From assembly GCF_023973145.1 (NCBI RefSeq), contig NZ_CP099546.1:806001-870000 (forward strand): a stretch of DNA of 64,000 nt, read 5' to 3'. The notes under the pieces were generated by a model. That model ran no database searches. It was not told where the DNA came from and was given only the letters and a program-made list of their open reading frames with translations. Below are positions 44,385-47,237 of the stretch, in pieces. Within the stretch, counting starts at the first letter, position 1. Every line of letters begins with the position of its first letter. The position numbers were made by a program, and so were the translations under genes. The DNA comes from Natronosalvus vescus. GTDB lineage: Archaea > Halobacteriota > Halobacteria > Halobacteriales > Natrialbaceae.

Positions 44385-44418
44385 CTCGTAAACCGAACAG
44401 TTAAACACGGTTTACGAG
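44385..44418 (+). promoter_or_regulatory. BirA-type operator over the bioY TATA box
   Basis: An 11-base perfect inverted repeat, CTCGTAAACCG (44385-44395) and CGGTTTACGAG (44408-44418), is separated by 12 bases. Its core GTAAACC-N14-GGTTTAC matches the BirA box described for biotin genes of bacteria and archaea (TTGTAAACC-N14/16-GGTTTACAA). TTAAA in the spacer (44401-44405) is about 27 bases before the bioY ATG and serves as a TATA box. A bound repressor would block it. Confidence 0.8.
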
Positions 44419-44429
44419 ACAGTCGAGGT

Positions 44430-45014
44430 ATGGCGACATCCACCAACTCCGTCAACCTCGTCGACGGCGACGTCGCGCAGTCGTTCGCTCGAGCGGCCGT
44501 GCTCGCGGCGCTGATCAGCGCGACGGCGTACGTCTCGATCCCGATTCCGTTCTCACCCGTCCCGTTCACCCTGCAGGTGTTGTTCGTGTGCCTCGCCGGC
44601 CTCGCACTCGGCCCCGTCTGGGGCCCTGTGTCGATGCTCCTGTATGTCACCGCCGGCGCGGTCGGACTCCCGGTGTTCGCGAACGGCGCGGGCGGTCTCG
44701 GCGTCATCGCCGGTCCCACGGGTGGCTACCTCCTCTCCTATCCAATCGCGGCGTTTGTGATCGGACTCTTCGTCCACCGGGGGACGACGCTGCGCGATCC
44801 GGCTACAGTTTCGTTGCCGACGCTGGTCGTGAGCGTCGTCGCCGGACTCGTCCTCGTATACGGGATTGGCGTTCCCTGGTTCGGCTGGGTGCAGAACGTT
44901 GGGATGGCCGAGGCCGTCGTCGTAGCTATGGTACCCTACCTCCCGTTCGATCTGGTGAAACTCGCGGCAGCCATCGCTATCGTCCGTAGCGGTAGACTGT
45001 CGATCGGCAACTGA
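44430..45014 (+). CDS. bioY: Biotin ECF transporter substrate-binding component BioY
   Basis: This is the membrane S component that captures biotin, with 194 residues and about six helices. The typical BioY start (VLAALISATAYVSIPIPFSPVPFTLQVLFV) matches residues 26-55. GPVWGPVSMLLYVTAGAVGLPVFANGAGG follows with the conserved GLPVF...GGLG pattern. It is the first gene of bioY-bioM-bioN, with bioM only four bases downstream. A BirA-type operator covers its promoter, so biotin surplus should switch it off. Confidence 0.96.
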   Translation: MATSTNSVNLVDGDVAQSFARAAVLAALISATAYVSIPIPFSPVPFTLQVLFVCLAGLALGPVWGPVSMLLYVTAGAVGLPVFANGAGGLGVIAGPTGGYLLSYPIAAFVIGLFVHRGTTLRDPATVSLPTLVVSVVAGLVLVYGIGVPWFGWVQNVGMAEAVVVAMVPYLPFDLVKLAAAIAIVRSGRLSIGN

Positions 45015-45018
45015 GCCG

Positions 45019-45729
45019 ATGCTCGAGTTCCGATCGGTTTGCCACGAAATCGTCGGCGTCACCGTCCTCAAGGACGTCTCGCTCGAGATCGACGACGAGG
45101 CGTTCGTCGTCCTCGTCGGCGCAAACGGCAGCGGAAAAACCACCCTGTTGCGCCACTGCAACGGGCTGCTCGAGCCGACGTCCGGAGCGGTGCTGGTCGA
45201 CGGCACCCCCGTCCATTACGACCTGGTCGCCGCCCGAACGGCCGTCGGGATGGTCTTTCAACACCCGCGCGATCAGTTCGTCGCGGCGACGATTGGCGAG
45301 GACATCGCCTTCGGCCCGGAAAACCTGGGCCTCGAGCGTGCCGAGATCGACGACCGCGTCACGGCGGCACTCGATGCCGTCCGGCTCGAGGGGCGGGAAT
45401 CGGATCGTATCGACACCCTCTCCGGCGGCGAACAGTCCCGCGTGGCCATCGCCGGCGCGCTCGCGATGGAACCGACGCACCTCCTGCTCGACGAGCCGTT
45501 CACCGGCCTCGACGAGCCCGCTCGCCGGTCGGTGCTCGAGCGGCTGGAATCGCTCTCGCAGGCGGGGACGGGAATCGTCGTCGCGACGCACGATCTTCGG
45601 GACGTCGTCCCCCTGGCCGATCGGGTCGTCGGAATGCGCGACGGCCAGGTTGTGATCGACGATCGGCCAGAGGCAGCGCTCGAGGCGCTCGCGGAACTCG
45701 ACGTCCGCGTTCCAACGGAGGTCGATTGA
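45019..45729 (+). CDS. bioM: Biotin ECF transporter ATPase BioM
   Basis: This is the cytosolic ATPase of the biotin energy-coupling-factor transporter, with 236 residues. Walker A is GANGSGKTTLL, the Q-loop is FQHPRDQF, the signature is LSGGEQSRVAIAGALAM and Walker B is LLLDEPFTGLDEPARR. The LSGGEQ and GANGSGKTT forms are normal for EcfA-like ATPases. Only one ATPase gene is present, as in BioMNY systems. It starts four bases after bioY and bioN starts ten bases after its stop. Confidence 0.95.
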   Translation: MLEFRSVCHEIVGVTVLKDVSLEIDDEAFVVLVGANGSGKTTLLRHCNGLLEPTSGAVLVDGTPVHYDLVAARTAVGMVFQHPRDQFVAATIGEDIAFGPENLGLERAEIDDRVTAALDAVRLEGRESDRIDTLSGGEQSRVAIAGALAMEPTHLLLDEPFTGLDEPARRSVLERLESLSQAGTGIVVATHDLRDVVPLADRVVGMRDGQVVIDDRPEAALEALAELDVRVPTEVD

Positions 45730-45739
45730 GGAGACTACC

Positions 45740-46444
45740 GTGCTCGCCTACGAACCCGACGACACGCTCGCCCATCGGCTGGATCCGCGATCGAAACTCG
45801 CCGTCCAGATCGGTTTCGCCGTCGCTGCCATCGTCCATCCGACCCCGCGAGCGCTCACCGTATTGACGCTGCTCGCACTGGCACTCCTGTGGTCGGCCCG
45901 CGTGTCGATCCAGCGAGCACTCGTCGCGTACCGATTCGCCTTTCCGCTCTTGCTCGCGGCTCCACTGGTCAGCGCGATCACCATCGGGAGTCCGTGGATC
46001 GATCCGCGGCAGGCGCTCGAGCCGGCGCTCGCGAGCTACCGGATCGTGTTGATTCTGCTCGTCAGCGCCGCCTACATTCGATCGACGCCGGTTCGTGCCT
46101 CGCGAGCGGCAATCCAGCGAACGTTTCCGGGGAAACCCGGGCAGCTCATCGGGATGGGCGTCGCGCTCGTGTTTCGATTTCTTCCGCTCCTCCGATCCGA
46201 CCTGCGGACGATTCGAGATGCCTCCGCGGCCCGGCTCGGAACCGAACGCGGGCAGCTCGAGCGGGTAACCCATCTCGGAACCGTGGCGATCGAGCGAGCT
46301 TTTCGGCGGGCCGACCGGCTCTCCCTCGCCCTCCAGGCGCGCTGTTTCGCGTGGAACCCGACGCTGCCACCGCTGTCGTTCACGCGACTGGACGCGCCGG
46401 CACTCGCGCTGGCGGTTGTGTTGGTAGCATCGGCACTGTTGTGA
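45740..46444 (+). CDS. bioN: Biotin ECF transporter transmembrane coupling protein BioN
   Basis: This is the EcfT-like coupling membrane protein linking BioY to BioM, with 234 residues and about five helices. The N-terminal half has long hydrophobic segments. The C-terminal coupling helices contain RDASAARLGTERGQLER and LALQARCFAWNP. In the usual EcfT the second motif is ARG; here it reads ARC. The start codon is GTG at 45740. It ends convergent with the lipoate-ligase family gene, 19 bases away. Confidence 0.93.
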   Translation: MLAYEPDDTLAHRLDPRSKLAVQIGFAVAAIVHPTPRALTVLTLLALALLWSARVSIQRALVAYRFAFPLLLAAPLVSAITIGSPWIDPRQALEPALASYRIVLILLVSAAYIRSTPVRASRAAIQRTFPGKPGQLIGMGVALVFRFLPLLRSDLRTIRDASAARLGTERGQLERVTHLGTVAIERAFRRADRLSLALQARCFAWNPTLPPLSFTRLDAPALALAVVLVASALL

Positions 46445-46463: not shown

Positions 46464-47183
46464 TCAGGCCGAACTGATCTCCTCGTAAACCGGGTCGCCG
46501 TCGCCGACGAGGGCGTCCTCGAGACGCTTTCGAAGCCGATCGGGGTCGGCCGTCCCGCCACCGTTGGCAACGCTTCCGACCGACGTCGGATCGAAAGGGA
46601 CGTCGAGCGCGTCGTAGACCTCTTCGAGGACGGCCGCGAGCTCGACCGCGGCGTCGACGATGATGATGCCCGAGACGAGCGCGCCATCGCTGCGGACGCG
46701 CTGGGCGATGCCGACGACCTTCCGGAGCGAGCCGTCCGCTGACGTGAGCGAAATCGAGTGCGCACCCGGACAGAACGAGTCCGCGGGTTCGCCCCGAACC
46801 GGCTCGAGACCCAGGCCCTCGAGCACCCCTTCGACGTCGTTCGTCAGTCGTTCGTAGCGCTCGTCGGTGCCTCGCCGGAAGTCCGCGACCGGTTCCGCGC
46901 GGACGAACGCCAGCGCGTTCGTCCCGTCGTAGGCGACCGCCCGGCCGCCGACGCTTCGTTCGACAGGGGGGAAGTCGTGTTCGCGCGCCCGGTTTCGGGC
47001 TCGTTCGTATCCCTCGAGTCGCGCGTCCCGACGGCCGAAGGCGATCTGGCGGTGGGGCGCCCAGACGCGGACGGCCCGCTCGCCGGCAGCGGCGAACTCG
47101 AGGAGACGCTCGCTCTCGACCCGGTCGACCTCGATGGTCGATGCGCGGCCACGGAGCACCCGGACGGACTCGGGGAGTTCCAT
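46464..47183 (-). CDS. Lipoate-protein ligase/octanoyltransferase family protein
   Basis: It transfers lipoate, octanoate or a related acyl group to a lysine of an acceptor protein, or binds such groups. The 239-residue protein has PVERSVGGRAVAYD (residues 74-86), which corresponds to the RRxSGGG loop but with GGR. Lys155 of KVVGIAQ is the conserved lipoate-binding lysine. Cys138 in SFCPGAHS occupies the place where LipM-type octanoyltransferases keep their catalytic cysteine. The ATG at 47183 or the GTG at 47192 are both possible starts. It is divergent from the M23-like gene by 54 bases. Confidence 0.82.
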   Translation of the reverse strand: MELPESVRVLRGRASTIEVDRVESERLLEFAAAGERAVRVWAPHRQIAFGRRDARLEGYERARNRAREHDFPPVERSVGGRAVAYDGTNALAFVRAEPVADFRRGTDERYERLTNDVEGVLEGLGLEPVRGEPADSFCPGAHSISLTSADGSLRKVVGIAQRVRSDGALVSGIIIVDAAVELAAVLEEVYDALDVPFDPTSVGSVANGGGTADPDRLRKRLEDALVGDGDPVYEEISSA

Positions 47184-47237
47184 AGCCGACACTGCGAGCC
47201 GAACTATCTAAACCCCGGCGACACCGACTCGAGGGTG

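Follow-up and report, generated by a model that had tools for sequence, protein, structure and literature searches.

The inverted repeat at the bioYMN promoter

What reads the inverted repeat that stands directly before bioY in this haloarchaeon, and what would its binding do to an archaeal promoter? The window (the whole stretch of 64,000 nucleotides that was analysed) holds the following features at this locus.

44385..44418 (+), predicted BirA-type operator, CTCGTAAACCG-N12-CGGTTTACGAG, a perfect inverted repeat that is kept in relatives
44394..44398 (+), BRE-like CGAAC, an inferred core promoter element whose first base is common with the left operator arm
44401..44405 (+), TATA-like TTAAA between the two operator arms, centred 27 bases upstream of the ATG at 44430
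44430..45014 (+), bioY, biotin ECF transporter S component, 194 amino acids (PF02632, 142.2 bits, E = 1.4e-41)
45019..45729 (+), bioM, ECF ATPase, 236 amino acids (PF00005, E = 3e-31)
45740..46444 (+), bioN, ECF T component, 234 amino acids (PF02361 CbiQ, E = 1.5e-18)

The three genes make up a BioYMN ECF biotin transporter, a BioY S component with a cognate ATPase and T component; bioM also matches ECF ATPase models (E = 2.4e-64), with a score under the curated cut-off. Convergent to bioYMN, at 46464-47192 (-), lies a gene for a lipoate-ligase-like protein (PF21948, E = 1.2e-9).

The original prediction described an 11-base perfect inverted repeat with the core GTAAACC-N14-GGTTTAC, and this is what the letters hold: the arms at 44385-44395 and 44408-44418 are 11 nt each, 100% complementary and separated by 12 nt, with GTAAACC at 44388-44394 and GGTTTAC at 44409-44415 enclosing 14 bases. 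The range of 44385-44430 given for it takes in the bases as far as the start codon; the inverted repeat stops at 44418, 12 bases before the bioY start (44430). Its likeness to BirA boxes in sequence and spacing also held, as core and N14 match the published consensus, TTGTAAACC-[N14/15]-GGTTTACAA, in an excerpt of PMC545781, and the site at 44385-44418 is an exact match to GTAAACC-N14/15-GGTTTAC.

A perfect repeat is unremarkable by itself, since about 0.9 perfect 11-bp inverted repeats with spacings of 4-30 are expected per 64 kb at this base composition (64% GC). For the exact 14-base BirA core at N14 the expectation is ∼8e-5 per 64 kb and 0.005 per 3.84-Mb genome, and the genome-wide search that the original prediction had proposed returned one exact site in the 3.84 Mb. 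When up to three mismatches are allowed, the window has two matches (0.76 expected) and the whole genome has 58 sites against 36 for a reversed-pattern control, so that the weaker genomic sites are mostly background. The site at 593580 (L093), with two mismatches and no recognisable biotin gene adjoining it in the ORF list, was taken as background. The exact BirA-box core is beyond chance, and it is the comparison with relatives that decides.

Conservation of the operator at bioY

bioY is present in 369 of the 391 genomes of the class. The palindrome was expected to be conserved before bioY of relatives, and it is, across the class and with the same spacing and position. Every one of the 30 loci that the bioY search yielded has an N14 site at ≤3 mismatches (29 of them at ≤1), which starts 42-43 bases before the homology-defined bioY start in 29 loci and at -21 in one. 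We extended the count to 78 loci from 48 genera: these 30, 40 picked by hand from the bioY list for breadth across genera (with few exceptions a single locus per genus; in some an exact site was known beforehand) and eight chosen for the BirA comparison, with the 27 loci retrieved through exact operator matches left out. The N14 arms occur at ≤1 mismatch in 56 of the 78 loci, at ≤2 in 68 and at ≤3 in 76; by genus, 42 of the 48 have a locus at ≤2 mismatches and 46 have one at ≤3. Halocatena salina and Halovivax asiaticus are named examples with a bioY site at ≤2 mismatches. Reversed arms gave 0/78 at ≤2 mismatches over the 17 spacings N6-N22, and the true arms at the other spacings of this range gave 0/78 at ≤1 mismatch and at most 2/78 at ≤2. 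The site directly before bioY of bioYMN is a class-wide feature of the promoter of this biotin gene. The ten loci with at least three mismatches at N14 comprise eight with three and two, G359 and G059, with five; G059 has a three-mismatch candidate at N13.

A class-wide pattern scan found exact sites in 96 of the 391 genomes, with reversed-control matches in three counted rows. Of 30 exact-site loci retrieved, 25 lie before bioY, four are at bioB and one is elsewhere. An exact BirA-type core with an N15 gap and an extra half-site adjoining is found at L063:1501-1529 (genome G256), and no biotin gene was recognised alongside it.

The operator logo was made from 102 of 105 loci (L112, L122 and L127 were dropped before counting) and leans to the consensus, because 27 of the 105 were retrieved via exact operator matches. 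The arms hold most of its information, and they covary: the pairing is A/T (GTA with TAC) in 72 operators, C/G (GTC with GAC) in 16, A/G in 12 and C/T and G/G in one each (n = 102; Fisher P = 3e-10 without phylogenetic correction, over the four A/C-T/G classes). The spacer is also conserved, with GAA(G/A) at positions 8-11 and TT(A/G)A(T/A) at positions 14-18 (T in 90/102 at position 15, A in 84/102 at position 17). This TATA-like element lies ∼28 bases before the start in the 102 bioY operators and is non-palindromic, and is thus not explained by a symmetric dimer. The TTAAA that the original prediction had noted in the spacer, 27 bases before the start, is where it was said to be and is kept in relatives.

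A study of Haloferax volcanii quotes, in the excerpt available, a haloarchaeal BRE 'CGAAA' and a TATA element 'TTWT', and puts 72% of the protein-coding transcripts as leaderless (PMC4983044). The two half-sites therefore stand on either side of the probable BRE and TATA of a leaderless gene. Judging by the position of the promoter, the bioY mRNA probably starts at or near 44430 and is leaderless.

The candidate regulator and biotin supply

An HTH-bearing biotin ligase was predicted to be encoded elsewhere in the genome, and such a gene is found.

L002:1237-2187, BirA, a 316-residue ORF with HTH_11 (residues 5-55), the BPL_LplA_LipB ligase domain (89-212) and BPL_C (269-312)

All three domains score above their Pfam cut-offs (PF08279, 49.2 bits; PF03099, 62.1 bits; PF02237, 48.0 bits), and an N-terminal HTH, a ligase and a C-terminal domain in one ORF form the architecture of a Group II (two-function) ligase. 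It is the sole PF03099 match, and hence the one biotin ligase, in the whole genome, and its HTH is the best of the 24 PF08279 (HTH_11) matches of the genome. The ligase model TIGR00121 matches above cut-off; TIGR00122, for the biotin operon repressor domain, gives 55.8 bits (E = 3e-15) where the curated cut-off is 70, and this protein also stays under the cut-offs of those full-length BirA repressor models to which it has a match. Escherichia coli BirA (1bia) aligns with this protein over residues 12-300 (2.5e-21), with SRAA, KH and LRD in common in the HTH. A published tree, as excerpted, contains several BirA sequences without positions considered important for regulation (PMC3199775). The region upstream of birA has no operator-like site (the best has five mismatches), and autoregulation by the operator is not supported.

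We scored the five best BirA candidates per genome. A BirA match is absent in 14 of the 391 genomes, and all 14 are also without bioY and without an exact operator (hypergeometric 1.8e-20, not corrected for phylogeny). An older, independent comparison of ten haloarchaea, in its accessible part, credits all but H. utahensis with both a biotin ligase and a BioY transporter (PMC3102087).

Coevolution of operator and HTH was considered, in a comparison that left out the 19 of 58 BirA rows for which no operator was retrieved. Nine genomes with a BirA row have the GTC form in both arms; the HTH reads SRNAVWKH in four, SRAA in four and SRTA in one. No conclusion was drawn: the four SRNAVWKH genomes are all from one family (f6), and SRAA is kept in four of the nine.

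That the organism would be a biotin importer agrees with its gene content. It looks like an importer without a biotin synthase, because bioYMN is present and no bioB scores above cut-off: the best bioB match of the genome has 27.5 bits against a cut-off of 225, and a search with haloarchaeal bioB at 1e-60 gave no match in this genome. In this it is like Natrialba magadii, which an excerpt of PMC3403918 describes as a biotin auxotroph with bioYMN.

The operator over the bioB start codon

Relatives of bioB are found at 1e-60 in 180 of the 391 genomes. From these we took 50 bioB loci (L218-L267), the 30 best matches and 20 chosen by genus, and in 49 of them the operator lies at exactly -19, with N14 and 0-2 mismatches, overlapping the start codon. 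The geometry is seen in the following example.

L067:1501-1528, bioB operator at -19, over the start codon

The one exception among the 50 is L236 (G215), with no operator site. At N13 or N15 none of the 50 loci has a site with fewer than three mismatches, and with reversed arms none has one with fewer than four. A BRE/TATA-like block is present at about -38 to -26 of bioB. Named species with a bioB site at ≤2 mismatches are Haloferax larsenii, Natronococcus occultus, Natrinema thermotolerans and Haladaptatus caseinilyticus.

In this position the right arm of the operator is coding sequence, (G/A)TG GTT TAC. Codon 2 of bioB is GTT in 49 of 49 genes, and elsewhere in the same genes GTT makes up 74 of 1366 valine codons. 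In L249 and in Haladaptatus caseinilyticus (L272) the half-site is GGTTGAC, and the protein therefore has Val-Asp instead of Val-Tyr. We think it likely that one BirA operator is used in two fixed geometries, enclosing the BRE and TATA at bioY (-42/-43) and, at a leaderless bioB (-19), lying over both the transcription start and the start codon. As the right half-site is protein-coding, it is then repressor binding, and not enzyme function, that would dictate the N-terminus M-V-Y-E-T of BioB.

Halomicrobium urmianum carries a distant type of bioB on a plasmid (L270:3989-4948; 45% identity), adjoining a gene for a PLP-dependent enzyme; no operator was found at this bioB, where the closest sequence has five mismatches.

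A gene between bioB and bioF (L268:5187-6215, L269:5115-6143, L272:4115-5182 and L273:4135-5187) is annotated as 'transcriptional regulator' or 'hypothetical'. The three tested (L268, L269 and L272) are BioU-like, with 315-329 bits to NF047886 (cut-off 600), and because of this match the gene is probably a mis-annotated biotin synthesis enzyme. This 'transcriptional regulator' of the bio operon in relatives was considered as a rival to BirA and set aside, as it appears to be a BioU-like enzyme and not a DNA-binding protein.

Proposed mechanism and alternatives

We are confident that the palindrome is the operator of BirA, which would repress the leaderless bioYMN by blocking TBP/TFB. Binding by BirA, biotinyl-AMP as effector, repression as the direction of control and TBP/TFB occlusion are modelled here on the bacterial BirA paradigm. 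With ample biotin, once no free apo-carboxylase acceptors are left, BirA loaded with biotinyl-5'-AMP would dimerise, and each of the two winged HTH domains of the dimer would bind one GTAAACC half-site. As the half-sites lie around the BRE and TATA and overlap them in part, TBP/TFB assembly would be blocked and transcription of the leaderless bioYMN mRNA would stop. When biotin is scarce, BirA would be occupied in biotinylating acceptors, the operator would be free and the importer would be made. At bioB, BirA-biotinyl-AMP would block at the start site rather than at the core promoter.

The palindrome might instead be bound by another HTH regulator (ArsR-, TrmB- or TetR-like, or an analogue of BioR or BioQ), with the HTH of BirA a relic. 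The genome is rich in HTH proteins, as its 24 PF08279 matches attest, and the TIGR00122 score of this BirA is under cut-off; nevertheless, the palindrome agrees with bacterial BirA sites in sequence and in N14 spacing, TcAACC variant included, and it is BirA that has the best HTH_11 match in the genome. Genomes without BirA also lack bioY and exact sites, which again speaks against a different regulator, and the eight proteins near bioY in the window that were scanned with Pfam gave no HTH family match. We consider such a regulator very unlikely. Slightly less probable still is that BirA binds but activates or merely tunes bioYMN. Sequence alone does not tell the direction of control, and the literature searched, as far as its accessible text goes, yielded no archaeal test; but the site covers the BRE and TATA in front of bioY, and at bioB the region where transcription probably starts, and each of these positions fits blocking and not activation.

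That the repeat is a chance palindrome, an RNA hairpin or a terminator has a negligible probability, even though about one perfect 11-bp inverted repeat of some spacing is to be expected per 64 kb. Conservation rules out a chance palindrome: where the repeat lies, how far apart its arms are and which bases it has are all kept, at ≤3 mismatches in 46 of the 48 genera. The only terminator-like match is a six-pair stem on the minus strand that uses one arm, and with a leaderless mRNA the palindrome would lie outside the transcript.

The BirA operator model could be tested directly. Haloferax is genetically tractable, and the conserved site is present in genus g43, whose bioB operator is letter-for-letter that of Haloferax larsenii and which is for this reason probably Haloferax. 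If the model is true, bioYMN would clearly exemplify the control of an archaeal TBP/TFB promoter by a repressor of bacterial type, and bioB would show a DNA operator leaving its imprint on the N-terminus of a protein.

Comparison with known systems

Operators of this kind are already known: publications give the BirA consensus and report it in front of bacterial biotin genes. The BirA biotin regulon was reportedly described by Rodionov et al. in 2002 (Genome Res 12:1507), under a title said to cover bacteria and archaea. That regulon and the haloarchaeal system share the palindromic GTAAACC-N14/15-GGTTTAC before biotin genes, bioY included, and an HTH-bearing ligase as the regulator. The haloarchaeal operators differ from bacterial BirA sites in the base outside the arm, which is mostly C (82/102, position 0) where the bacterial sites have T, and in having an archaeal BRE/TATA-like promoter in the spacer. 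Within the accessible text of the open-access literature searched, no paper describes BirA operators of haloarchaea or the placing of the operator over the bioB start codon, and none reports an experiment on whether BirA acts as a repressor in an archaeon.

Streptococcus suis is similar in having a single bioY importer, no biotin synthesis and a BirA site at the promoter, and its BirA is reported to shift the bioY promoter in gels in vitro, according to portions of PMC4877710. It differs in its bacterial promoter, in its GTTAACC-type arm and in that deletion of the BirA HTH did not significantly change expression of a bioY-promoter reporter (same portions of PMC4877710). The delta-proteobacterial BirA sites in the visible rows of Table 1 of PMC545781 have the same core and N14, and the GTCAACC/GGTTGAC form occurs among these published bacterial sites (as GTcAACC...GGTTgAC). 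The delta-proteobacterial sites in those rows lie at -63 to -182 of biosynthetic genes, whereas the haloarchaeal operators are at -42/-43 (bioY) or -19 (bioB).
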